A DNA stretch of 26,465 bases, taken from the IMG/VR virus record IMGVR_UViG_3300030060_003404, positions 1 to 26,465 of that record, one strand, 5' to 3'. Shown here piece after piece: positions 1,116 to 26,348 of this stretch. A program made the translations under genes and the position numbers. The stretch is from a virus. Numbering within the stretch: position 1 is the first letter of the stretch; each line of letters starts with the position of its first letter. The notes beneath the pieces are model-generated. The model was given only the letters and a program-made list of their open reading frames with translations, ran no database searches and had not been told where the DNA came from.

Positions 1116-3007
1116 ATGTTAATGTAAAATTAAAAGATGCAATTAAAGATTTTGAAATTTTTGATCAAAGAGTTACGGAATCAAAAGACGCTGTTGTAAA
1201 ATTAGAAGCACAACTAGTAAAATTAGAAAAAATACAAAAAACATTAGATCCTAAAGATTTAAATAGAATTAAGGACTATAACGAGGCTATAGAAAAAACT
1301 AAAAATAGAATTAGAGAGGAAAAAAATGATTTAAAACAATTAAATTTAGAAAGAGGTAAAGCTAAGAAAAAAGTAGATGAGTTAAAAAAATCAAAAAATG
1401 ATCTTGAAGGTGCAACTAGCATGTTGGATAGAGCCACTGGTGGACTAATTAGTGGATTTAAAAATCTAAAATCATCAGTAGGTGGAGCAGTAAAGTCTCT
1501 AGGTTTTATGAAAACAGCGTTAATAGCTACAGGGATTGGATTGTTTATTGTTTTACTCGGTTCACTATATGCTGCGTTTACAAGATCTGAAGAAGGTCAA
1601 AACAAGTTTACTAAACTAATGATGCAAATAGGTAACGTTGTAAATAACGTTTTAGATATTATTGCTGATCTTGGTTCTAGTATTATAAATTTAGGAAAAG
1701 GATTATTTAAGTTAGCTACAGGTGATCTTAAAGGAGCCGGTAAAGCGTTTACAGATATGGCTGGTGACGTGGTTAATGCAACAGTCGCTGTTAAAAACTT
1801 TGGTAAAACAGTAAAAGAAGAGTCTAAAATTATAAATGAAATTGCTGACGCAAGGGCTAAAGCTGATAAAATAGAAAGACAGTTAATGATAGATAGAGCT
1901 AAAGCTACTAGAGATGTTAACGAGTTAAGAGAAAAAGCAGCAAGGCGTGAAGAATTTTCTACCGAAGAAAGAATTGCTTTTTTAAGAAAAGCAGGTGAAA
2001 TAGAAAGAGGCATTACTGATAAACAAATTGAGGCTACTCAATTAAGATTAGACGCTAAAAGAAAAGAGTTAGAATTAGGTAAAAACAGTAAAGAAGCTTT
2101 AGATGAAATAGCTAAACTAGAAGCTGATATGATCAATTTAGAAGCTAAGAGTTTAAGAAGACAGAAAGCTATAAGTGCGGAGATTACCACAAATATTAGA
2201 GAACAAAATGCTGAAATAGAAAAAAGATTAGCAGATTACGTTTTTATCCCTGGTGTAGGTTATATTTCAAAAGAAGCATTTCAAAAAATACAAGAAAATC
2301 AACAAGGAATAAAAGCTATTCAAGATGAATATAAAAGAAGGGCAGAGGAAGAAGCCGCTGAAACAGAAATACAAAGAATAGAATTAGAAAGACAAAGAGC
2401 ATTAGAAGAACTCGATAGACTTAATGCTACTGAAGAACAAAAATTCTTGATCAAGAAATTTTATGCTGATAAAATATTAGAAGCTGAAACTGATAACAAA
2501 AAGAAAGAAGAAAATTTAGACAAACAAGTAGCTGCTGCTAAAATAGCTCAAGCGGGTCAAGCATTTGCTTTAGTCGGACAGTTAGCTACTAAAGGAAGTA
2601 AAATAGGTAAGATAGCTGCGATAGGTCAAACCGTAATTGGAGGAATACAAGCTGTTCAAAACGCTTATTCTACCGCTCAAAAATCACCTATAACAGCAGT
2701 GAACCCAGGTTATCCTGTTCAACAAGCGATTATTGCCGGTGCATTTAGCGCTGCTCAATTAGCTAAATTAATTGCAACTAACCCAGAGTCACCTTCCGTT
2801 GGTGGGTTACAATCCGTTAACGCTAATAGTGGTCAACCAGCTGTACCTGAATTTAATATTGTAGGTCAAGGCGGTACTAGTCAATTAGCTGGAGCTATTG
2901 CAGACCAAGAACAACAACCAGTACAGGCTTACGTTGTTTCACAAGATGTTACAACTGCACAAAGTTTAGAAAATAATATAATTTCAGGAGCTACTTTAGG
3001 TGGATAA
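1091..3007 (+). CDS. Tail tape measure protein
   Basis: The 638-residue protein sets tail length and probably aids DNA entry. Residues 20-105 are Lys/Glu-rich heptads typical of coiled coil. Residues 141-163 form one strongly hydrophobic segment (ALIATGIGLFIVLLGSLYAA). Residues 240-480 are a second long coiled coil. The C-terminal 150 residues are Ala/Gln/Gly-rich, with a region at 490-565 typical of tape measures (QAFALVGQLATKGSKIGKIA). At about 0.15 nm per residue, a rule of thumb for tape measures, the tail would be near 95 nm. The start is ATG at 1091 inside the preceding gene. The stop overlaps the SET gene by 8 bases. Length, membrane segment and coiled coils fit the family well. Confidence 0.85.
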   Translation: MANETSTINVNVKLKDAIKDFEIFDQRVTESKDAVVKLEAQLVKLEKIQKTLDPKDLNRIKDYNEAIEKTKNRIREEKNDLKQLNLERGKAKKKVDELKKSKNDLEGATSMLDRATGGLISGFKNLKSSVGGAVKSLGFMKTALIATGIGLFIVLLGSLYAAFTRSEEGQNKFTKLMMQIGNVVNNVLDIIADLGSSIINLGKGLFKLATGDLKGAGKAFTDMAGDVVNATVAVKNFGKTVKEESKIINEIADARAKADKIERQLMIDRAKATRDVNELREKAARREEFSTEERIAFLRKAGEIERGITDKQIEATQLRLDAKRKELELGKNSKEALDEIAKLEADMINLEAKSLRRQKAISAEITTNIREQNAEIEKRLADYVFIPGVGYISKEAFQKIQENQQGIKAIQDEYKRRAEEEAAETEIQRIELERQRALEELDRLNATEEQKFLIKKFYADKILEAETDNKKKEENLDKQVAAAKIAQAGQAFALVGQLATKGSKIGKIAAIGQTVIGGIQAVQNAYSTAQKSPITAVNPGYPVQQAIIAGAFSAAQLAKLIATNPESPSVGGLQSVNANSGQPAVPEFNIVGQGGTSQLAGAIADQEQQPVQAYVVSQDVTTAQSLENNIISGATLGG

Positions 3008-3422
3008 TAATTACGACATAACGTGGATGGATAATTATAAGGTTTATATAGGTAAATCTGATATTCATGGTGTAGGCCTAAGAGCCATTAAAGATATTAA
3101 AAGACATGAGACTGTTTTTTATCATAGAAGCAAGAATACTTATAAATTAAATAAATTACAATTAATTCAAAACGGTGTTCATAAGGATGTAATTAAAACG
3201 TTAAGCAGACTTTATTATTGTGATCATGATTTTTTATTTTTAAAGGCAAATCCAGAGCTTAATTTTGTAAATTATTTAAATCATTGCGAAAATCCTAACA
3301 TGTATTTTAGGCAAGGATACTACATTGCTAAACAAGATATACAACAAGATCAAGAAGTCACTTTGAATTTCCTAGAAAATAACTACCATCCTCAACTTAG
3401 TTTTACTCCAACGAAAATATAA
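3000..3422 (+). CDS. SET-domain protein (putative lysine methyltransferase)
   Basis: This 140-residue protein carries the SET core: the SAM-site strand IHGVGLRAIKDI (residues 22-33), the NH...PN box (N94, H95, P99, N100) and the final AKQDIQQDQEVTLNF block (residues 110-124). Known SET enzymes methylate protein lysines with S-adenosylmethionine. The usual ELTxDY ending, whose last Tyr is catalytic, reads EVTLNF here, so that Tyr appears to be Phe124. There are no pre-SET or post-SET zinc cysteines; the length resembles minimal viral SET proteins such as PBCV-1 vSET. The start is GTG at 3000, preceded by AGGAG nine bases upstream. ATG at 3027 is an alternative. The position between tape measure and head genes suggests a virion or host protein target, but this is inference. 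Confidence 0.75.
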   Translation: MDNNYDITWMDNYKVYIGKSDIHGVGLRAIKDIKRHETVFYHRSKNTYKLNKLQLIQNGVHKDVIKTLSRLYYCDHDFLFLKANPELNFVNYLNHCENPNMYFRQGYYIAKQDIQQDQEVTLNFLENNYHPQLSFTPTKI

Positions 3423-12443: not shown

Positions 12444-12772
12444 AATGGGTTGTAACGGTAATTGTCCTTTTTGTAACGGTTGCGATTAATTCGCAAAACA
12501 AAGACGGAATAAGTGTAATACAGTACACTGCTTCTTTTGCGGAGCAGGTTGATCTTAAAATTTTTAATGATCACAATGTGCAAACTTTTTTTATCTCTAA
12601 GTCAAAAGATATTTTTGACAAAGAGGATATTAAATATTTGCCTACTATAATTTTATATAGTGACGGAGAGGAAATAATAAAAATTGAAAGCGGAATAAGT
12701 TTAAAACTACCTGACGATTGGAGAAAGCAATTAAACGAACATATAGACTTTTTGTTGGAGCAACGCTTCTAA
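12440..12772 (+). CDS. Exported thioredoxin-fold protein lacking CxxC
   Basis: The 110-residue protein has a cleavable-looking signal peptide (MKWVVTVIVLFVTVAINSQN). The mature part follows thioredoxin order: strand ISVIQYTASFAEQ (residues 24-36), where thioredoxins have the WCxxC site, then FFISKSKD, then YLPTIILYSDGEEIIKIESG (66-85), with the cis-proline at P68 and the typical hydrophobic strand pair. The active-site cysteines are absent, so it should not be a disulfide oxidoreductase. It may bind a partner in the periplasm. It overlaps both neighbours, the second by 55 bases. Confidence 0.6.
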   Translation: MKWVVTVIVLFVTVAINSQNKDGISVIQYTASFAEQVDLKIFNDHNVQTFFISKSKDIFDKEDIKYLPTIILYSDGEEIIKIESGISLKLPDDWRKQLNEHIDFLLEQRF

Positions 12773-13095
12773 CTAGTATATGCTTTTCTCAAATACAAAA
12801 GGATAAGGTTTACCACTTTGGGGCTGGTGTAATATCAGAAGAAATAGGATCACGATTTGACATTAAAATACCTGTAGCAAGTTCTTTTGTTATAGGCTTT
12901 GGCAAAGAAGTGTACGACTATATAGATTACGGTAGGTTTGACACTAAAGACTTAGCAGCTACAGTTTTAGGTGGAGTTGCTTATACTATAACAATAAAAC
13001 TAGTAAATAAAGATAAAAATGAAAAAATTAATAAGCGTGTTATTCGCTCTTATCGTAAGCATAAGCGCAAGCAGTCAAGAAAAAAAAGAAAGTAA
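12718..13095 (+). CDS. Exported membrane-associated protein, DUF2279/YfiM-like
   Basis: The 125-residue frame starts at TTG 12718, inside the preceding gene. No later start would keep the complete signal-peptide-like N-terminus (MEKAIKRTYRLFVGATLLTS ICFSQ). The core has the spaced pattern HFGAGVISEEIG (33-44), FVIGFGKEVYDY (57-68) and DTKDLAATVLGG (75-86), similar to small membrane proteins of the DUF2279/YfiM type with conserved His, KE.D and D..DL positions. Its very basic end (SYRKHKRKQSRKKRK) is read through the start of the next gene. The function of these families is unknown. The lysis-module setting suggests an envelope role. Confidence 0.6.
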   Translation: MEKAIKRTYRLFVGATLLTSICFSQIQKDKVYHFGAGVISEEIGSRFDIKIPVASSFVIGFGKEVYDYIDYGRFDTKDLAATVLGGVAYTITIKLVNKDKNEKINKRVIRSYRKHKRKQSRKKRK

Positions 13096-14110
13096 ATTTA
13101 AAAAGCTGTTTAAATATTCTACTTTCTACGCGGCATTTTCTGAAACAAATTCAATTCAGGGTGATCAAACATTTGCTGTAACACAGTGGAATGAATTATT
13201 AGAAACCACTGTAAAAAATCCTGCCGATTTTAAATGGAGTGTTGGTTGGAGAAAACTAGCTAACTTCCAATATGAAGATCGTAACAAGTTTTACGATGGA
13301 AATGAAAATAATGTAGGAACTAGATCTAATATAGGTAATACAACTGGATTAGAATATCTAGTAGAGTTTTCTAAAGGTAGACAACAAGGTAATGAGTTTG
13401 AAAATAAAGAAGCTTTTGTCAGATATTTAGGTAAATGGTGGTTAGTAAAAGGGGAGTATCAATTAAATGAGTTAATAGATCTAGATTATACATCTGCTGA
13501 AGCAAGATTGAGATTACCTATAGGAAAAAAATTAAGTATATCTGCAGGTGCAATATATAGAAAAGCTCAAAAGGCATACGGGCATAATCCAATACAGTTA
13601 TATTTAGAAGATAATCCATGGTGGGTTTTAGCTTATGATTTTGCAAACCACACTGATCAGGTTTATGAGATGATAAATCCTGTGACAGGCGAAAGTATGG
13701 GTTACGATTATTTATGGTACAATCAAGCTGGAAATCTAATTGCAGCAAGTGATGCGGACTATAGAAACGGGGTATTTCAGAATGTGGTAAATAGATATAA
13801 CGAAACTAAATTAGCTGAAATAGATCCTCATGAATATGGTAGCCTTATTGCAGGTGTGGATTTTTATCATTACAGACGTAACTTTTGGCTACATGCCTAC
13901 GGAAATGTTTTACCTAAACATAAATTAATTAGTGGTGATCAAAGATATTGGTATGGTAATAAAAACGGTGATGATTGGATTGATTATAGCGTAGGAGCTA
14001 TTGTTGGTTTAAAACTTGGAAAATTTGGTATTTTCACGGAGTTTGCTCAACAAAGATATTGGGACAGAAATTTAAGAGAAATTAAAGTTGGATTAAATTA
14101 TAAATTATGA
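13019..14110 (+). CDS. Predicted outer-membrane beta-barrel protein
   Basis: The 363-residue protein opens with a clear signal peptide (MKKLISVLFALIVSISASSQ). The mature part is made of amphipathic strand-like stretches with many aromatics: FKWSVGWRKLANFQYEDRNK, KWWLVKGEYQLNELIDLDYT, SAEARLRLPIGKKLSISAGA, DYSVGAIVGLKLGKFGIFTE, and it ends LREIKVGLNYKL, close to a barrel C-terminal strand. No known barrel family was identified. Phage-encoded outer-membrane proteins are unusual; possible roles are superinfection exclusion, receptor masking or envelope disruption at lysis. Start codon is ATG 13019, inside the previous gene by 77 bases. Its stop overlaps the endolysin start. Confidence 0.65.
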   Translation: MKKLISVLFALIVSISASSQEKKESKFKKLFKYSTFYAAFSETNSIQGDQTFAVTQWNELLETTVKNPADFKWSVGWRKLANFQYEDRNKFYDGNENNVGTRSNIGNTTGLEYLVEFSKGRQQGNEFENKEAFVRYLGKWWLVKGEYQLNELIDLDYTSAEARLRLPIGKKLSISAGAIYRKAQKAYGHNPIQLYLEDNPWWVLAYDFANHTDQVYEMINPVTGESMGYDYLWYNQAGNLIAASDADYRNGVFQNVVNRYNETKLAEIDPHEYGSLIAGVDFYHYRRNFWLHAYGNVLPKHKLISGDQRYWYGNKNGDDWIDYSVGAIVGLKLGKFGIFTEFAQQRYWDRNLREIKVGLNYKL

Positions 14111-14478
14111 CAAAAAATTTTAGCAAACAAGAGTTTGATTCCAAGTGTGGTGCAGAGATGCCAGACGAGGTTTATCACAATATAGTAAAGGTAGCAAATC
14201 AATTACAGTATTTAAGAGAATATTTAGGTAAACCAATAAAAATAAATAGTGGTTATAGAAGTCCTGAGCATAATGCTAAAATAGGTGGTGTAAAAGGATC
14301 GCAACATACTTTAGGTAAAGCAGCTGATATAGTTGTAAAAGGAATAAAACCAGAATTTATTTATCATTATATTGATGACGCTATAAGCAATGGTGACATG
14401 TTGCAAGGCGGTCTAGGTTTATATGAGACATTTGTTCATTACGATATAAGAGGAACTAAAGCAAGATGGAATGGATAA
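14107..14478 (+). CDS. Endolysin, M15-family zinc peptidase
   Basis: The 123-residue protein matches the peptidase M15 (D-Ala-D-Ala carboxypeptidase-like) family. Seen are INSGYRSPEHNAKIGG (46-61), the zinc ligands in SQHTLGKAADI (H67 and D74) and the final FVHYDIRG (H111). These enzymes cut peptide bonds in peptidoglycan stems. Length is standard for the single-domain form. There is no signal peptide, so release needs a holin, which is the next gene. Start ATG 14107 overlaps the preceding stop and the C-terminus overlaps the holin gene by 8 bases. Confidence 0.88.
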   Translation: MTKNFSKQEFDSKCGAEMPDEVYHNIVKVANQLQYLREYLGKPIKINSGYRSPEHNAKIGGVKGSQHTLGKAADIVVKGIKPEFIYHYIDDAISNGDMLQGGLGLYETFVHYDIRGTKARWNG

Positions 14479-18919: not shown

Positions 18920-19619
18920 ACCAAGACTTACAGGTAATAAAAAATATGCTTATAAATATTTAACTGAAAAGGTTAACAGAGTTTTAGTTATCGGTGATTT
19001 ACACGAACCTTTTTGTTTAGATGAATATTTAGATCACTGCATAAGTGTATATAAAAAGCATAATTGCAACAAAGTAGTTTTCATAGGTGATGTAATTGAT
19101 AATCACTACAGCAGTTATCACGAAACAGATACTGAAGCTTTAGGTGGTTCAGACGAGTTAGAGTTAGCTATTCAAAGAATTTCTAGGTGGTATAAAGAGT
19201 TTCCTAAAGCGATTGTTTGTATTGGAAATCATGACAGGATAATAATGAGAAAAGCGCAAACTTCAGCTGTTCCTAGGAAATGGATTAAGGCTTATAAAGA
19301 TGTTTTAGAAGTACCTGGTTGGAAGTTCGTAGATAGGTTTGTTTTAGATAATGTTCAATATATACACGGGGAAGCAGGCACCGCTAGAGTTAAATGTAAA
19401 GCTGACATGCAATCAACTGTTCAAGGACATTTACACACTCAATGTTACACTGAGTTTTTTGTAGGTCAGAACTTTAAAGTTTTTGGAATGCAAGTCGGAT
19501 GCGGAATAGATTTTGACACGTACGCGATGGCTTATGCTAAACGAGGAAAGAAGCCAGCAATTGGATGTGGTGTTGTGATCAATGGTAAGATTGCTATTAA
19601 CGAACTCATGAATCTATAA
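18906..19619 (+). CDS. Calcineurin-like metallophosphoesterase
   Basis: The 237-residue protein has all metal-site blocks of the family: VLVIGDLHEP (D31, H33), VVFIGDVIDNH (D62), IVCIGNHDR (N108, H109, D110), YIHGE (H154) and VQGHLHTQ (H175, H177). Members hydrolyse phosphodiesters in DNA, RNA or cyclic nucleotides. In phages they often act as nucleases or defence countermeasures. The substrate cannot be read here. The position between sigma-like and modification genes is compatible with a nucleic-acid or nucleotide substrate. Its stop overlaps the next start by one base. Confidence 0.85.
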   Translation: MEPYRPRLTGNKKYAYKYLTEKVNRVLVIGDLHEPFCLDEYLDHCISVYKKHNCNKVVFIGDVIDNHYSSYHETDTEALGGSDELELAIQRISRWYKEFPKAIVCIGNHDRIIMRKAQTSAVPRKWIKAYKDVLEVPGWKFVDRFVLDNVQYIHGEAGTARVKCKADMQSTVQGHLHTQCYTEFFVGQNFKVFGMQVGCGIDFDTYAMAYAKRGKKPAIGCGVVINGKIAINELMNL

Positions 19620-20524
19620 TGAAGAAACTAGTTTTTTCTGATAAGATTAAACATCGGCTCAATGATTATTTAATTTTTTTAAAAGAATTTGATAGTAGAT
19701 CTAATCCTATTGTGAAAGATAATCCTAATTTTTTTTCTCATAGATTACATTGGGATGAACATCCTTTTTGTTTAGTAATGAGAAATAAATTTGATATTCA
19801 TACTTTAGATGGTTTACAAAAAGCTTTATCATCTTGTTTAGTATTTAGTTTTTCAAATGAACATTGGGGTTTAATAAATGATTATTGGGAAATAGGATAT
19901 GACGCTTTTTATAATAGACCACCTAATAGTTTAATGAGAAGAGATTTATTTCAAATATATCTTAAAAAAGATTGTACTGTATCAAACTCTTTATACTTAG
20001 CTGATAAAACAGGTAGACAACTATGCAAGAGAATGTTTAAGAGATATAAAACACGGAGATATACTATAATGGAATTGACTAGAATTCTTAATGAGTTTTA
20101 TTGGAAAAAAGGTTTTAAGAAAGTTAAGTATGCTTTAAAAAATGCAGCGAGATATTTAGCCATGTGTTTCCCTGAATTAGTAGATCCTAACTCGCCAGTA
20201 ACTGGTGGACCTGGACACTTTAGTGGGATTAGTTATATTTTTGACGATGATAACATGGTAGCCCCTGTAGATTCTTTTTACTCTAGATTAGAGACAGGTT
20301 CATTTATTCCTAAGAATGATTGGAGAGCTACAACATGGGTAAATTATATGGGTATCTTAAATGGATTAACTATCAATATTTTTGATCGTCAACACTGGTT
20401 AAACAATGAAGATAAAGTTTGTTTTTATTACAAGCTTCAGCAGTTTAAAAATAACGAAAGAAAGCCAAGATCTAATTATAATATGAATCATATAATTCCA
20501 GAATGGTTTAAATTAAAATGTTAA
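19619..20524 (+). CDS. Paralogue of the 23187 gene: putative DNA base-modification protein
   Basis: The 301-residue protein carries no motif by itself, but residues 150-208 align without gaps to residues 178-236 of the protein at 23187-24098. By hand 21 of 59 positions are identical, including EL, NE, KKG, FP, NS and the closing IF. The two are therefore probable paralogues, and this one shares whatever base-modification role the other has. Other blocks are WDEHPFCLVMRNKFDI (45-60) and GGPGHFSGISYIFDDDN. It lies 2.7 kb from the main cluster, after the metallophosphoesterase. The amino-acid:DNA transferase / thymine pyrophosphorylase family is my best guess. Confidence 0.5.
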   Translation: MKKLVFSDKIKHRLNDYLIFLKEFDSRSNPIVKDNPNFFSHRLHWDEHPFCLVMRNKFDIHTLDGLQKALSSCLVFSFSNEHWGLINDYWEIGYDAFYNRPPNSLMRRDLFQIYLKKDCTVSNSLYLADKTGRQLCKRMFKRYKTRRYTIMELTRILNEFYWKKGFKKVKYALKNAARYLAMCFPELVDPNSPVTGGPGHFSGISYIFDDDNMVAPVDSFYSRLETGSFIPKNDWRATTWVNYMGILNGLTINIFDRQHWLNNEDKVCFYYKLQQFKNNERKPRSNYNMNHIIPEWFKLKC

Positions 20525-20530
20525 AGTTTT

Positions 20531-20564
20531 GTTAAATATTTTTTTTTATTAACAAATGTTTGTA
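20531..20564 (+). promoter_or_regulatory. Promoter-like block B (GTTAAATA...TTTGTA)
   Basis: GTTAAATA (20531-20538), a long T run and TTTGTA (20559-20564) match block A at 15654-15687 in sequence and in their 28-base offset. The box AATGTTTG is one base from TAnnTTTG. It begins seven bases after the previous stop and ends 10 bases before ATG 20575, which suggests a short leader. Confidence 0.6.
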
Positions 20565-20574
20565 TATTACCAGT

Positions 20575-20760
20575 ATGATAACTGTAAATTACGACGCAGA
20601 CATTTTTACTGCCAAGGAAGATGAGGACAACGGAAACACGGTTCTAACTCTTAAGCCAAAGGTTATGAAAGCCTTAGGAATGGAGTACCCGTTCGGATCT
20701 GTTGTTGAGGTCAGCCAAGGCAATCACTTAGACAGCGGAATCGCTGCTGAGAAAATGTAG
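20575..20760 (+). CDS. 61-aa protein with atypical high G+C
   Basis: With ATG 20575, just after promoter-like block B, the protein is MITVNYDADIFTAKEDEDNG followed by TVLTLKPKVMKALGMEYPFG, then SVVEVSQGNHLDSGIAAEKM. It is acidic and soluble and has no motif. A hand count gives 81 G+C in bases 20581-20760 (45%), against about 25% in 20401-20460 just before. C-rich codons (GCC, GAC, CCG, TTC) are used. It could be very highly expressed, or recently acquired. A TTG at 20560 is an inferior start because it lies in the promoter box. A hairpin follows its stop. Confidence 0.65.
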   Translation: MITVNYDADIFTAKEDEDNGNTVLTLKPKVMKALGMEYPFGSVVEVSQGNHLDSGIAAEKM

Positions 20761-20761
20761 G

Positions 20762-20795
20762 TTAATAGGCGGTGAATAATAGTAGCCGCCATTAA
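20762..20795 (+). terminator. Hairpin after the 61-aa gene
   Basis: TTAAT, a bulged A and GGCGG (20762-20772) pair with CCGCC and ATTAA (20786-20795) around a 13-base loop, followed by TTTT. The long loop makes it a moderate rather than strong terminator. It would limit transcription of the short unit that starts at block B. Confidence 0.55.
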
Positions 20796-20827
20796 TTTTC
20801 AGTCGTGATCTACCTAAAATTTAAAAG

Positions 20828-21196
20828 ATGTATTTAACACAAGAACAATTAGAATTAAAGTATTTCAGTGAAACAGAAACTGATCTAGCAACTAGAAGGT
20901 ACATAAGAAATTTTTATGTAATATTTACCAGGCTAAGAAAGACCGACGGTACATGTTCATGGTACTTATATAAGTCTAGTGATGAGGAAGGATCTAGATG
21001 CTATGCTCATGGTAAAATTAATTTATGGAGAAACGATATAGAATTAGATGACAACTTTGAATGTCAAAATTTATGTGACTACATGAACCACATTAAACCA
21101 GCGTATAACGCAGACCGTGATCACTTAATTGATTACGTAGAAAACACACTAGCAAACGTGATCATGGAAAGAAGAATAACATTAGAATATAGATGA
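20828..21196 (+). CDS. Hypothetical protein
   Basis: The 122-residue protein begins MYLTQEQLELKYFSETETDL and is rich in aromatic and charged residues, with strand-like FYVIFTRLRKTDGTCSWYLY and a helical end (RDHLIDYVENTLANVIMERR). I see no known motif, signal peptide or membrane segment. Its end overlaps the next gene by 4 bases (ATGA), and the leader has no Shine-Dalgarno. It belongs to the run that leads to the exonuclease gene. Function is unknown. Confidence 0.6.
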   Translation: MYLTQEQLELKYFSETETDLATRRYIRNFYVIFTRLRKTDGTCSWYLYKSSDEEGSRCYAHGKINLWRNDIELDDNFECQNLCDYMNHIKPAYNADRDHLIDYVENTLANVIMERRITLEYR

Positions 21197-21351
21197 AGAA
21201 ACCAAAAAAATATACTCATCAACAAAGGATGTCACGCATGGAAAAAGTCTTAACAACTTATTACGTGATCATTCAAAGTTTACAACAAAGAATTAAAATA
21301 ATAGAAGATAAGTTAGGGATTAAAAACGACAAAGATGATACTACTGTTTGA
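21193..21351 (+). CDS. 52-aa basic coiled-coil protein
   Basis: The start shares ATGA with the previous stop, and the 3' end overlaps the exonuclease gene by 17 bases. It encodes MKKPKKYTHQQRMSRMEKVL and a helical TTYYVIIQSLQQRIKIIEDK region with coiled-coil spacing. There is no recognised domain. Dense overlap on both sides favours real translation. It may be a partner of a neighbouring protein, but that is speculation. Confidence 0.55.
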   Translation: MKKPKKYTHQQRMSRMEKVLTTYYVIIQSLQQRIKIIEDKLGIKNDKDDTTV

Positions 21352-22012
21352 TGCGGATAGCTTAATTTATTCTTCATGTATAAACGTTGAAGATCTAGAA
21401 GACGCTTGCGCTAAGTTTGATGAGGTGCTAATGTCAATAGTTAATAGACTAGATGAAGAGCATGATATAAAAGAGTTAATTGTTTTTAATAGTGCTAAGG
21501 GTAACTTTAGAAAGATTATATTAAATAGTTACAAAGCTAATAGAACAGCTAAAAAACCACCTTTGTTAAACCAACTAACTGAGCATGTGATCAAGGAGTA
21601 CAATAGTAGAATTGCATACGGCATGGAGACCGATGATCTAGTTGCTACTTATTGGAATAAGTTACAAAAAGAATTTGGCAGAGATAATGTTATAATAGTT
21701 GCCTTAGATAAAGACTATAAACAACTTCCATGTTTACTTTATAACTACCACATAAAACACCAAACAATGTGGAATATTTCAGAGAAACAAGCGTTGTATA
21801 ATTTTTACACTCAAATGATTGTTGGAGATTCAGCAGATAATGTAAACTTCTGTAAAGGTTACGGTATCAAATATGCTGAAAATTTATTTAAAAATTGTCA
21901 GACTAAATATCAATTTATGAGAAAAACATTTGAATTGTTTAAAAAGATATTTAGATCTAAAGCTAGAGAGAAATTTATAACTTGTTACACAGTATTAAAA
22001 CTAAGAATATGA
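21335..22012 (+). CDS. 5'-3' exonuclease (FEN/PIN-like, T7 gp6-type)
   Basis: The 225-residue protein shows the acidic metal sites of flap-type 5' nucleases: ILLFDADSLIY (D6, D8), NSYKANRTAKKPP (64-76, the YKANR block), YGMETDDLVATYW (E98, D100, D101), VALDKDYKQL (D125, D127), GDSADN (164-169; D165, D168), and the following GYGIKYAENLF helix-hairpin-helix-like part. It should degrade 5' ends or RNA primers during replication. Two-metal catalysis is known for the family. Its stop overlaps the next start by four bases. Confidence 0.85.
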   Translation: MILLFDADSLIYSSCINVEDLEDACAKFDEVLMSIVNRLDEEHDIKELIVFNSAKGNFRKIILNSYKANRTAKKPPLLNQLTEHVIKEYNSRIAYGMETDDLVATYWNKLQKEFGRDNVIIVALDKDYKQLPCLLYNYHIKHQTMWNISEKQALYNFYTQMIVGDSADNVNFCKGYGIKYAENLFKNCQTKYQFMRKTFELFKKIFRSKAREKFITCYTVLKLRI

Positions 22013-22278
22013 GTAATATATTAAAAGAAGCAGATAAAATAATTAACGAAAGATCAGAAGAAAAAGAAAGGAATTACGGGCCGTTCTCAGAAGGTATGAG
22101 AAGAGCCGCGCTAATAGCTTCAGGGGCAACCGGTAAAGATATTACCGCTGAAGACATGTATATGTGCATGGTAGCATTAAAGCTGTCCAGAGAATCATAT
22201 AATCACAAGAAAGATAATTTACTAGATGCAGTTGCTTATCTAGGTGCACTTAATAATTTACACAATGAGCAAGGATAA
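22009..22278 (+). CDS. DUF6378-like small phage protein
   Basis: Using ATG 22009, which overlaps the previous stop as ATGA, the protein has 89 residues: MSNILKEADKIINERSEEKE, then RNYGPFSEGMRRAALIASGA and ITAEDMYMCMVALKLSRESY, ending DNLLDAVAYLGALNN. The YG...A.....G..IT..D....MVALKLSR....DN..DAVAYLG pattern fits the family filed as DUF6378, common in phages near nucleotide or replication genes, which is probably helical and may be related to MazG-type folds. Its activity is not established. The last 14 bases lie under the next start. Confidence 0.65.
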   Translation: MSNILKEADKIINERSEEKERNYGPFSEGMRRAALIASGATGKDITAEDMYMCMVALKLSRESYNHKKDNLLDAVAYLGALNNLHNEQG

Positions 22279-23215
22279 TATTTGCATGATCAATTTAATG
22301 GGCAAGGTTCCTACTAAATTGAATTCACATAATGCCGGTTGGACTTATTGTCTAGCTAGTATTATTAACGAGAGAGTCGATTACGATGTTGAGTTTGTAA
22401 ACGACCCTAAACAAATCCACATGTATAAAACTGTGGTGATTAATAACGGAATTAACTATAAAGAAAATGTTTGGAATTTCTTTGGAGGTGTTCAACAAAT
22501 CACATTAGATTACTTACACGAGTTAAGTAAATACAAAGGTGATCTATATTGTTTTAACGAACCAATTAATTTTAAATCTTTATTAAAAAGAAAAGAGATA
22601 ACAACTATTCCAAATAAACCAGTAATAACTGGCACAACCGTTAGTAAGAAATTAATACTAGGTGACTCACATGCTTTGTCAATTTATAAACCAGGTTGGG
22701 GTATAAATAGATTGGATGGTAAAACCTTACATGGATTTTTAAAAGACCCTTACAAGTATTTCGATAAAGACGAAACCACTGATCTAACTTTGTACTTCGG
22801 CAACATAGATGTTAGATTCCATTTAATGCGTCAACCTAATCCATCTTTAGCAGTGTATGAGTTGTTTGCTAAGCTATGTATGTTCATAGAAGAAATAACA
22901 CCTGACATAAATGTTACGGTGCAAGAATGGTTACCTGTAGAAGATGAATCTAGAAAAATACCTGGCTCAGGTAAATACAAAGGCGAGTCTTATTTTGGTA
23001 GCAAAGAGGCGAGACAAAACTTAGTTAACTTATTTAACGGTTTATTAAATACAGCATGCACTAAAAGATACCCTTACAAGGTACAAAAATCTTGGTTAAA
23101 ATACCCGTTAGACTTTGATCACATGGAGGCTAGGCAATCAGTTCATGTTCGACCTAGTAGTTATTTACACAAAAATACTTTTATAAATGATACGAGAGTT
23201 CCAACTTTATTATAA
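22265..23215 (+). CDS. SGNH-like hydrolase or transferase
   Basis: With ATG 22265 the protein has 316 residues. The N-terminal 125 residues (KVPTKLNSHNAGWTYCLASI; YKTVVINNGINYKENVWNFF) are an unidentified alpha/beta part. Residues 129-190 look like an SGNH core: LILGDSHALS (Ser135 in block I), FGNIDVRFHL (178-187, block III G-N-x-D) and a C-terminal FDHMEARQSVHVRPSSY (H286 or H294 as the catalytic His). SGNH enzymes are esterases, acyltransferases or related. It overlaps the 23187 gene by 29 bases, which ties it to that cluster. Role in DNA hypermodification is possible but unproven. Confidence 0.6.
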   Translation: MSKDNICMINLMGKVPTKLNSHNAGWTYCLASIINERVDYDVEFVNDPKQIHMYKTVVINNGINYKENVWNFFGGVQQITLDYLHELSKYKGDLYCFNEPINFKSLLKRKEITTIPNKPVITGTTVSKKLILGDSHALSIYKPGWGINRLDGKTLHGFLKDPYKYFDKDETTDLTLYFGNIDVRFHLMRQPNPSLAVYELFAKLCMFIEEITPDINVTVQEWLPVEDESRKIPGSGKYKGESYFGSKEARQNLVNLFNGLLNTACTKRYPYKVQKSWLKYPLDFDHMEARQSVHVRPSSYLHKNTFINDTRVPTLL

Positions 23216-24098
23216 CAAAGCTAAACTTAATCAGCAAAGACTTTACCAAGGTTACGATTGGACTGAACAAGATATTGATGATGATCTAATCTGGAATGTT
23301 CCAATATACGACGTTGTCAATAGGAGATACGCTGCGTTTAGTAGTTTTTTAGAAGCTATAATCCACGGTGAAAACGATCCTAAAGGTAATGGTGATTACT
23401 TTAAACACGCTGCGCTTAGCGATTATGATTTCATGCTTTTATGTTATTTATTCAGGTTATGCGGAAGCGGTATTAATTACTATCCTAAGACTAATCACCC
23501 GTATGGAACTCATGGGTTTGGAAATTTTTGGATAGTAGATAGTTTGCTTAATGAAAGATTAACTTTTGATAAATGGCTTGAGGATTTACCTGATAAAAAG
23601 TTCAGCGACAATAAAGGTTATTTGTTGCCGATGATTCCTAAAGGGTTAAGAAATTTTATTCTGGAAGATAGTCAAGAGCTAGTAACATATATTTTAGATA
23701 ATATGTGGGGATTAGAAATCTACGAACTTGTAGATCTAGGCAATGAATGGTTATTAAAAAAAGGTTATAAACGTCAGAACTTTGTTTTATGTGCGTTTGC
23801 CATGGACTTAGCAGAGTATTTTCCAAAAATAATAACTAGAAACAGTAAGGTTTATATAGGTTCAAATGCTAGAAAATGTTTAAAATTAATCTTTCCAGAA
23901 AGAAAAGGTCTAGGTAGTAATTTAGAAGCAACAAATGATGCTTTAGAGCACTTGTGTAATTTAACAGGTAACTTTAGCCACAAGTATGACATGGAAGATG
24001 TGGCTTGTGATTTCATAAGGTATAAAAATAATTTTCAAAGCAAGCATCATATTGAATATAACAAAGGGATAAAATATTATAATAATGTTTTTAAATAA
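23187..24098 (+). CDS. Putative amino-acid:DNA transferase / thymine pyrophosphorylase-like
   Basis: The 303-residue protein contains LLCYLFRLCGSGINYYPKTN (84-103), HPYGTHGFGNFWIVDSLL (104-121) and YLLPMIPKGLRNFILEDSQE. The combination F-R-L-x-GSG-x-N then H-G-F-x-N-x-W-x-V is how I remember the helical amino-acid:DNA transferase and aGPT-Pplase families that act on 5-hydroxymethyl-uracil pyrophosphate in DNA. Residues 178-236 also match the protein at 19619 (21/59 identical). It overlaps a PLP-enzyme gene downstream and is 0.9 kb from a thymidylate-synthase homologue, the expected partners. Family membership needs a profile search. Confidence 0.55.
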   Translation: MIREFQLYYNKAKLNQQRLYQGYDWTEQDIDDDLIWNVPIYDVVNRRYAAFSSFLEAIIHGENDPKGNGDYFKHAALSDYDFMLLCYLFRLCGSGINYYPKTNHPYGTHGFGNFWIVDSLLNERLTFDKWLEDLPDKKFSDNKGYLLPMIPKGLRNFILEDSQELVTYILDNMWGLEIYELVDLGNEWLLKKGYKRQNFVLCAFAMDLAEYFPKIITRNSKVYIGSNARKCLKLIFPERKGLGSNLEATNDALEHLCNLTGNFSHKYDMEDVACDFIRYKNNFQSKHHIEYNKGIKYYNNVFK

Positions 24099-24978
24099 AC
24101 AAAAATATATAGATAATAAAGATTTAAATTTATTTGGTCTTGATCAATACTTAATGCTTACCGAAGGTTTCAAATCATCCTTCGATCCTTTTGCTGTAAA
24201 AGACATAAATGGATTTAAAGTTATAGATGAATCTGAAGCATGTGAAGTTGGTTACAAGGCTAGATCAGGTGAGTTTTTTATGCAGCATTTAAAAGATATA
24301 AACGTTAATCACGTTGTTTATGTTCAACCTAGAAGAGGTTTTGCTGGTATCTCATTAGCTTGGCTTTGTAAAAAGTATGACATGAAACTTACATTAGTTA
24401 TGCCTTCTTCTAAAGAAGTTAGTGATCATCAAGCTTTATGTATTGAGTTAGGTGCTAAAGCTAAATTTGCTAGAATAGCCGCTATGCCTAATGCTAATAA
24501 GATTGCTAAAGAATATGCTGATAAAATAAATGCTTTTTTTATTCCACTAGGATTAAATCATCCTTTAGTAATTGCTGGAGGTGTTAAAGTAATTCACGAT
24601 TATTTTAAAGACAAAGAAAAACCTAAAACAATGTGGAGTGTTATTAGCACAGGAGTATTACAAAGATCATTACAAATTGCATTGCCAAATACAGAATTTA
24701 AAGCAGTTGCAGTTGCTAGGAATATACAACAAGGCGAATTGGGCCGCGCTGAGTTTTATAGTTATCATAAGCCCTTTAACAGTCTATCAGATTTAATACC
24801 GGATAAATTTGATTGTGAGAATAGTTATGACTCAAAAGGCTGGCACTACATGTGCAAATATGGAAATAAAGGAGATTGGTTTTTTAGTGTAGCCGGTAAC
24901 GCTAAGAAGCCAACAATAAATAAGAGTCAAATTAAATCTTATAGAGATTGGAACGACTTAAAAGATTTTAAAATATGA
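24085..24978 (+). CDS. Fold-type II PLP-dependent enzyme
   Basis: The 297-residue protein has the layout of tryptophan-synthase-beta-like PLP enzymes: a candidate Schiff-base lysine in CEVGYKARSGEF (K58), HVVYVQPRRGFAGISLAWLC followed by KKYDMKLTLVMPSSKEVSDH and ELGAKAKF, then a phosphate-loop-like WSVISTGVLQRSLQ. In phages with thymidine hypermodification a PLP enzyme decarboxylates or otherwise trims the amino acid attached to DNA. That is its likely role here beside the 23187 gene and the synthase homologue. A role in free amino-acid metabolism is the alternative. Neighbouring starts overlap by 14 and 4 bases. Confidence 0.7.
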   Translation: MFLNKQKYIDNKDLNLFGLDQYLMLTEGFKSSFDPFAVKDINGFKVIDESEACEVGYKARSGEFFMQHLKDINVNHVVYVQPRRGFAGISLAWLCKKYDMKLTLVMPSSKEVSDHQALCIELGAKAKFARIAAMPNANKIAKEYADKINAFFIPLGLNHPLVIAGGVKVIHDYFKDKEKPKTMWSVISTGVLQRSLQIALPNTEFKAVAVARNIQQGELGRAEFYSYHKPFNSLSDLIPDKFDCENSYDSKGWHYMCKYGNKGDWFFSVAGNAKKPTINKSQIKSYRDWNDLKDFKI

Positions 24979-25616
24979 TTTATAAAGATGTAACAAAAGC
25001 ATTTGAATCCTTATATAATAAGATCGATAAACAACCTGCTGGTCCTAATGGAACTAAAGCTATTTACAATGAATGCTTTACGATAAAAGATACTAGTAAG
25101 TTAGTTGTTAAAACACCTTGGAGAAACTTTAAAGATAGTTATGCGGAAAAGGAATGGAAATGGTATCTTTCAGGAAATAGAAATGCAGAGGATATAGCTA
25201 AGTGCGCCAAGATTTGGTATGATCACATGGATGAGAATGGAAATGTCAATTCTAATTATGGTTGGCAATGGTGGAGAAACGATCAATACAGATATGTTGT
25301 TGAACAATTAAAATATAATAGATTCTCTAGAAGAGCCGTAATAACTATTTATGACGGTAAAGAATGGGAAGAATATGAAAAAGATACTCCTTGCACTTTA
25401 GCAATTAAGTTTTATTGTAAAGCTGATCCAAGAGTAATCCACATGTCTGTTGTTATGAGAAGTAACGATTTGTGGTTTGGTTTTTGCAACGATGCTTATT
25501 GTTTTATGAAATTGCACGAGTCTATATGCGCGGACTTAAATGCAATTCAAGGAGAATATACACATTATGCGCAAAATTTACATTTATACCCAAGACATTA
25601 TGGAAAAAACATTTGA
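24975..25616 (+). CDS. Thymidylate synthase homologue (candidate dUMP hydroxymethylase)
   Basis: The 213-residue protein matches the synthase fold: EWKWYLSGNRNAEDIAKCAK (60-79), WYDHMDENGNVNSNYGWQWW, the nucleophile in DTPCTLAIKF (C140), MRSNDLWFGFCNDAYCF (R162, S163, D165, N172) and YTHYAQNLHLYPRHY (H203, Y205). Family members transfer a one-carbon unit from methylene-tetrahydrofolate to dUMP or dCMP. N172 sits where Asn selects dUMP and Asp selects dCMP, so dUMP is expected. Given the neighbouring modification genes, making hydroxymethyl-dUMP rather than dTMP is the better guess. It is shorter than the usual 260-residue form. Confidence 0.75.
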   Translation: MIYKDVTKAFESLYNKIDKQPAGPNGTKAIYNECFTIKDTSKLVVKTPWRNFKDSYAEKEWKWYLSGNRNAEDIAKCAKIWYDHMDENGNVNSNYGWQWWRNDQYRYVVEQLKYNRFSRRAVITIYDGKEWEEYEKDTPCTLAIKFYCKADPRVIHMSVVMRSNDLWFGFCNDAYCFMKLHESICADLNAIQGEYTHYAQNLHLYPRHYGKNI

Positions 25617-25929
25617 ATTAATTAGACAATGGGCTAAAGAACGAAGCCTAGACGTAAAAGGAAACCCACATACTCAATATGTAAAGTTTCAAGAAGAAGC
25701 TGGTGAGTTAGCAAAAGCATTACTTACGGATAATAGAGAAGAAATAATAGATGCAATAGGGGATATTGTTGTTGTTTTAACGAACTTAGCACACATGAAG
25801 GGGTTAAGTATTGAGGATTGTATTGTCACAGCTTATTTGGAAATAAAAAACAGAAAAGGAGTTATGATCAACGGGACATTTGTTAAACAAACAAAAGATA
25901 CAGATCACATAATTTCAGGAACAGAATGA
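25600..25929 (+). CDS. MazG-like nucleotide pyrophosphohydrolase
   Basis: The 109-residue protein (ATG 25600; a longer frame from 25540 is unlikely because it lies in the synthase gene) shows the MazG pattern: YVKFQEEAGELAKALL (27-42, E32, E33, E36), then NREEIIDAIGDIVVVLTNLA (45-64, E48, D51, D55). These all-helical enzymes hydrolyse NTPs or dNTPs to the monophosphate. In a base-modifying phage it could remove dTTP or dUTP so that the modified nucleotide is used instead. It overlaps the preceding gene by 17 and the following by 4 bases. Confidence 0.8.
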   Translation: MEKTFELIRQWAKERSLDVKGNPHTQYVKFQEEAGELAKALLTDNREEIIDAIGDIVVVLTNLAHMKGLSIEDCIVTAYLEIKNRKGVMINGTFVKQTKDTDHIISGTE

Positions 25930-26348
25930 GAAGATATATTGCAAAAATAAGAATACCCGATAATCTTGATCACCAATCAGTAGGTTATGTTGGAGAACAA
26001 ATATTTAAGTTGTGGTTTAAAAGAATATATAATGACGAACAACTATTTAAACAAAAAGCTGATAGGGAATACCAACAAATAGATTTTTCTGATGAAAAAG
26101 GTTTTACTTATCAAGTTAAAACAACTAGCAAAAAAAGTTATACATTTAACTGTAATTTAAATAATTTAAAAAAACATCTTAATGCTGATTTTTATGTGTT
26201 TATACAATTACAAAACAACTATGCTTACATAGAGCCAATAAAGAACAAGGTCGACATTTTAAATAACATAAAGAAATCCTTTATAAATGATACATGTTAC
26301 GTTAAAGCGAGAGACCTCCAGCAAAGAGAAATCGACATTAGTAAATAA
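25926..26348 (+). CDS. PD-(D/E)XK nuclease-like protein
   Basis: The 140-residue protein has the core of the restriction-endonuclease-like fold: SVGYVGEQIFKLWFKRI (18-34, E24), YQQIDFSDEKGFTYQVKTTS (49-68) with D53 and Q63-V-K65 as the D...(E/Q)xK site, and strand FYVFIQLQNNYAYIEPI. Its position just after MazG and synthase genes suggests action on DNA, such as attack on host DNA lacking the modification, a resolvase, or repair. Q replaces the more usual E of ExK, which is known in active members. The family is not further identified. Confidence 0.6.
   Translation: MRRYIAKIRIPDNLDHQSVGYVGEQIFKLWFKRIYNDEQLFKQKADREYQQIDFSDEKGFTYQVKTTSKKSYTFNCNLNNLKKHLNADFYVFIQLQNNYAYIEPIKNKVDILNNIKKSFINDTCYVKARDLQQREIDISK

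Follow-up and report, generated by a model that had tools for sequence, protein, structure and literature searches.

A conserved gene cassette of uncultivated phages as a candidate pathway for kinase-free hypermodification of 5-hydroxymethylcytosine

The viral record IMGVR_UViG_3300030060_003404, analyzed here over its entire length (26,465 bases; hereafter, the window), contains seven genes transcribed in the same direction (21982-26348, + strand), with an overlap of 4-29 bases between each gene and its successor. They code, in this order, for a DUF6378 protein, an SGNH-fold enzyme, an all-helical protein (P23187), a pyridoxal phosphate (PLP) enzyme, a thymidylate-synthase homologue, a MazG-like protein, and a small protein (Table 1). 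An earlier note, made from the sequence, had proposed that most of these genes, together with one coding for a paralogue of P23187 (P19619), constitute a thymidine hypermodification pathway. Most of its parts list was borne out: the GSGxN...HGFxN motifs of P23187 were seen in an alignment, the SGNH fold was supported by Foldseek on a predicted structure, the PLP and MazG-like assignments agreed with family matches, and P19619 proved to be a paralogue of P23187, albeit a remote one (BLAST pair E 2e-6, besides the profile-profile match in Table 1). The description of the genes as codirectional and mostly overlapping holds for the seven-gene run and not for P19619, which lies about 1.5 kb upstream of it and 810 bases from an exonuclease gene, without overlap. 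The open frame of the MazG-like gene starts at 25540.

Table 1. Cassette genes of the window and the gene for the P23187 paralogue.
Feature	Position	Strand	Basis and remarks
P19619, remote P23187 paralogue	19619..20524	+	hhalign 84%, E 7.6e-6
DUF6378 protein	21982..22278	+	Pfam DUF6378 2.9e-13; first cassette gene, kept in 37/37 loci
SGNH-fold enzyme (predicted), extra N-terminal alpha/beta region	22265..23215	+	GDSH, GNID, and C-terminal His motifs
P23187, all-helical, predicted AADT/HMUDK_hel/aGPT-Pplase fold superfamily	23187..24098	+	AlphaFold2 model; BFVD matches; 45-sequence alignment
PLP fold-type II enzyme	24085..24978	+	Pfam PALP 3.4e-9; PHROG 7093 5e-21
Putative dCMP hydroxymethylase (thymidylate-synthase superfamily)	24975..25616	+	Family match 4.3e-22; T4-type signature
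MazG/PRA-PH-type nucleotide pyrophosphohydrolase	25600..25929	+	Pfam PRA-PH 1e-6, MazG 1.1e-5
Small protein after MazG, possible nuclease	25926..26348	+	In ~30/80 loci; pathway membership uncertain

The genes form a tightly conserved cassette, beyond what chance would give. When P23187 was used to scan viral contigs, 176 related stretches were obtained, 80 of which were kept as loci; since the loci were chosen by P23187, the counts tell what surrounds this gene and are no measure of how frequent the other genes are. All 37 loci that had sufficient flanking sequence at either side contained the DUF6378, SGNH, P23187, PLP, and synthase-homologue genes together, and the MazG gene was kept in 32 of these 37. 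Gene order was near-constant among loci, and the core cassette was also found in an unrelated phage backbone (G006). In a divergent set (L090-L098, L100, and L101) the cassette is rearranged, with P19619 adjacent to the homologues of SGNH, PLP, P23187, and the synthase; P19619 is thus a core cassette gene in the divergent phages and an accessory one in the phage of the window. Two loci, L007 and L092, belong to one 37,025-base contig, the ends of which hold differing versions of one region, with and without P19619. This contig is probably a mixture of strains, and P19619 seems subject to gain and loss. L100 contains a C-5 cytosine methyltransferase gene (12590-13792; E 1.4e-11) after the SGNH gene, and L101 a gene matching it (13044-14246). 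No prophage copies were confirmed in bacterial genomes, and a search among isolates for direct relatives of either P23187 or P19619 found none. The only isolate relatives given by the portal are Nonlabens (Flavobacteriia) phages, and the closest isolate hydroxymethylase comes from a Bacteroides phage (49.5% identity), which supports the earlier assignment to a Bacteroidota-type phage.

The thymidylate-synthase homologue encoded at 24975 had been described as carrying the Asn of enzymes acting on deoxyuridine monophosphate (dUMP). The homology stood, and the reading of the residue did not. In an alignment with T4 gp42, SPO1 gp29, and M6-like and ViI-like dUMP hydroxymethylases, the specificity position is occupied by Asp173 (Asp179 in T4); the Asn is residue 172, which precedes it and which the T4 enzyme also has, and it was probably this Asn172 that was taken for the key residue. 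Structural work on the T4 enzyme named Asp179 as the determinant for deoxycytidine monophosphate (dCMP), gave as signature of hydroxymethylation a Ser-x-Tyr motif together with an Asp at the third position ahead of the catalytic Cys, and stressed the missing C-terminal tail (PMC6400193). Every hydroxymethylase feature named there is found in the 24975 protein: D137 lies three residues ahead of C140, S93-x-Y95 is present, and the protein, of 213 residues, lacks the C-terminal tail. Its best match among solved structures was T4 dCMP hydroxymethylase (E 7e-17). Asp173 was invariant in the cassette members (57/57), and Asp also occupied this position in the divergent cassettes L090, L093-L098, L100, and L101. 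Aeromonas phages 31 and 25 provided an internal control on the reading of this column, since their hydroxymethylases carry Asp whereas their own ordinary ThyA proteins carry Asn. The identification of the 24975 enzyme as a dCMP hydroxymethylase is well supported by these features, and the target base of the cassette is most likely cytosine, not thymine as the earlier note had it. In a tree, the hydroxymethylases of L093-L101 grouped with T4 gp42. These divergent cassettes also have a dCMP deaminase gene, next to that of the hydroxymethylase; no deaminase was recognized in the window or in its complete relative G001.

The PLP enzyme is, as judged by profile comparison, homologous to gp52 of phage M6 (hhalign probability 96.5, E 9e-10, against the gp52 family), a relationship for which plain BLAST gave no significant match. 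Its putative Schiff-base lysine, Lys58, is conserved across the family (at least 95% of members). M6 gp52 is said to trim an attached amino acid in phage M6. In Erythrobacter phage R6L, gp1 (L002:8804-11233; 810 residues, with a ParB-like start by eye) has a cassette-type PLP domain between DNA methyltransferase segments, so that this PLP family travels with DNA-acting enzymes. In L080 the PLP enzyme was matched by two adjoining open frames; the gene there is either duplicated or broken in its frame.

P23187 gave an AlphaFold2 model of high quality (predicted local distance difference test, pLDDT, 90.3). When compared with the BFVD viral models, it matched (probability 1.00, E 1e-10 to 5e-3 overall) proteins named AADT domain (E 1e-10 and 2e-4), as well as the helical domain of 5-hydroxymethyldeoxyuridine (5-hmdU) kinases (HMUDK_hel) and Pplase clade 1 (Pplase1) (E 2e-3 to 5e-3). 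According to this model, P23187 belongs to the AADT/HMUDK_hel/aGPT-Pplase fold superfamily, outside the AADT family proper.

The protein encoded at 22265 is, on the evidence of its predicted structure (pLDDT 89.8), a true SGNH fold: Foldseek returned GDSL, PAF-AH, and sialate esterase structures (E 5e-5, probability 1.00). The blocks GDS135, GN180, and H294 are present, with Gln three residues before the His, where Asp is expected; in L093, Asn180 is replaced by Ser. A partnership between this enzyme and P23187 is supported by the adjacency of their genes and by their fusion into a single 639-residue open frame in L052 and L057. Another fusion, seen in Aeromonas phages 31 and UP87, joins the SGNH region to a long C-terminal part, which matched HMUDK_hel below the Pfam threshold (E 9e-4 and 6e-4, respectively); apart from this weak match, no significant sequence link was found between P23187 and the C-terminal region of phage 31. 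We know of no SGNH enzyme in the described hypermodification pathways, in agreement with the earlier note.

The HMUDK_hel domain of the known thymidine pathways occurs linked to a kinase. The earlier note had suggested looking for a 5-hmdU DNA kinase gene outside the window, and none was recognizable in G001, which is complete (its gene order is self-closing and its ends share a common 30-base repeat). The kinase family (PF18723, HMUDK_hel with P-loop) was unmatched in the window or its relatives, the terminase was the only enzyme-like match in a P-loop motif search of G001, and no kinase-like families were found close to the cassette. The other ATPase of the window is a replication-type AAA_25 protein. 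A kinase elsewhere in the genome was rejected as a candidate on these searches of the relatives, one of them complete. Since the complete relative has no recognizable DNA kinase, activation must, as far as its genes tell, differ from that of the known thymidine pathways, and we propose that the SGNH enzyme may activate the hydroxymethyl group in place of a kinase. Neither a phage polymerase nor a phage kinase was recognized in the complete relative.

The earlier view, that the cassette serves DNA-base hypermodification and is akin to the ViI and M6 routes, was supported. The best explanation, which we consider probable, is a kinase-free pathway that hypermodifies 5-hydroxymethylcytosine with an amino-acid-derived group, and the combination of enzymes has probably not been described before. 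In such a pathway, the MazG-like protein, perhaps with the DUF6378 protein (possibly a MazG-like nucleotide-pyrophosphohydrolase helper), would convert deoxycytidine triphosphate to dCMP, as T4 gp56 does. The 24975 enzyme would then form 5-hydroxymethyl-dCMP from dCMP and methylene-tetrahydrofolate, a step well supported by its signature, and host kinases and polymerase would bring the product into DNA. There, the SGNH enzyme would activate or acylate the 5-hydroxymethyl group alongside a base-handling helical P23187, P23187 would install the amino-acid-derived group on it, the PLP enzyme would trim the attached amino acid, the role ascribed to its homologue gp52 in M6, and the modified DNA would be protected from host nucleases. 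A more specific version, in which the DNA kinase is replaced by the SGNH enzyme, which acylates the hydroxyl of 5-hydroxymethylcytosine in DNA and so creates a leaving group, the AADT-fold partner, in some loci fused to the SGNH enzyme, exchanges this group for an amino acid, and the PLP enzyme trims the latter, is offered tentatively and is on balance unlikely.

Several observations weigh against this interpretation. P23187 had no sequence match to the amino acid:DNA transferase family PF18724 in Pfam, its hhalign comparison with the M6 transferase family was not significant, and Foldseek against the PDB gave no significant match, the solved transferase 8z2m being absent from its output; since these tests failed, P23187 was placed in the fold superfamily only. 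The link to AADT suspected earlier was thus negative by sequence and stands for the fold as seen by structure, and P23187 as a plain member of PF18724 was rejected. The tree did not resolve the hydroxymethylase clade of the window as kin of T4 gp42, so that the claim of a dCMP hydroxymethylase rests on the active site and not on descent. Finally, the dCMP deaminase of some divergent cassettes could in principle convert hydroxymethyl-dCMP to hydroxymethyl-dUMP.

Among the alternatives, the one that survives best is that 5-hydroxymethylcytosine is acylated by the SGNH enzyme to an ester, the helical proteins only flipping or recognizing the base and the PLP enzyme preparing the donor. The resemblance of the SGNH fold to acyl hydrolases and its fusion to the helical protein fit this alternative, as does the gene for the SGNH relative of Aeromonas phage 25, which lies near a UDP-galactopyranose mutase gene and so does not tie these enzymes to amino acids alone. 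However, the PLP family is elsewhere linked to DNA-acting enzymes (M6 and the Erythrobacter fusion), and two AADT-superfamily-like paralogues occur together in the divergent cassettes; we hold the ester improbable. Still less probable is thymidine hypermodification, in which the synthase homologue would make 5-hydroxymethyl-dUMP and 5-hydroxymethyluracil would be decorated as in ViI and M6. The homology of the PLP enzyme to M6 gp52, the AADT/HMUDK-type fold of P23187, and a deaminase that could convert the nucleotide in the divergent cassettes would agree with it, but the specificity residue is Asp in every member where the dUMP-type hydroxymethylases of 5-hmdU pathways have Asn, no deaminase was recognized in the window or G001, and no 5-hmdU DNA kinase was found. 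Thymidine was rejected as the target on the evidence of Asp173. We give least credence to the synthase homologue merely methylating dCMP to yield 5-methylcytosine, or to the genes serving nucleotide metabolism without DNA tailoring: the superfamily does contain dCMP methylases (PMC5175136), but all hydroxymethylation-specific residues are present, the C-terminal tail is missing, and it would remain unexplained why an AADT-fold protein and an M6-type PLP enzyme stand in so strict a cassette. A defense system was also considered and rejected, PADLOC giving no match.

The small protein encoded after the MazG-like gene gave no match in family searches; by eye it is PD-(D/E)xK nuclease-like (QIDF...YQVKTT). 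Among the structural genes, the window also codes for a SET-domain protein (3000-3422; Pfam SET 4.8e-8).

If the 5-hydroxymethylcytosine pathway is correct, amino-acid-type hypermodification would reach beyond thymine to hydroxymethylcytosine, and this in a large group of uncultivated phages (176 stretches in one scan), and a new enzyme role would be predicted for SGNH proteins. Should the SGNH enzyme indeed stand in for the kinase, this would be, to our knowledge, the first phosphate-free amino-acid hypermodification on hydroxymethylcytosine. Like the thymidine pathways of M6, ViI, and phiW-14, the cassette has a hydroxymethylase for pyrimidines and a protein of the AADT/HMUDK fold, and its PLP enzyme is a homologue of M6 gp52; the cassette differs in that its hydroxymethylase is of dCMP type rather than dUMP type, an SGNH enzyme is present, and no 5-hmdU DNA kinase was found. 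An M6-type radical S-adenosylmethionine step was not recognized among the cassette genes, and no genome-wide search for it was made. With T4 gp42 and gp56 the cassette has in common the hydroxymethylase active-site signature and a nucleotide pyrophosphohydrolase alongside; in contrast to T4, no glucosyltransferase was recognized in it, and the tailoring proteins are the SGNH, AADT-like, and PLP proteins. In the 5-carboxymethylcytosine-glycine system (CmoX/CmoY), an amino acid is likewise placed on cytosine as a phage DNA hypermodification, although through a carboxymethyl handle and an ATP-dependent amide ligase instead of the hydroxymethyl handle proposed here (PMC12783734).

Homologous SGNH proteins (27-29% identity, E 1e-21 to 3e-26) are encoded by Aeromonas phages 44RR, 31, and 25 (PHROG 13881 / 17781), and phages 31 and 25 share with the cassette a dCMP hydroxymethylase; a scan of viral contigs for relatives of this SGNH type returned phage 44RR itself as sole match. 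Unlike in the cassette, the SGNH of phages 31 and 44RR is fused to a long C-terminal part that matches HMUDK_hel weakly, and tblastn found no homologues of P23187 or the PLP enzyme in the records of the three phages. In phage 25 (L086:3776-7047) the SGNH relative comes after two genes, one for the UDP-galactopyranose mutase and one for a protein of 358 residues, a neighborhood that may point to a sugar-type group on hydroxymethylcytosine in this phage. These T4-like phages, which belong to the isolates with the SGNH relative, have been reported to contain gene 42 (dCMP hydroxymethylase) and no glucosyltransferase (PMC2993671). If our interpretation holds, it would offer a concrete candidate for what, if anything, modifies hydroxymethylcytosine in phages of this type, a question arising from that report, and since the three phages are isolates, the idea is partly testable directly.

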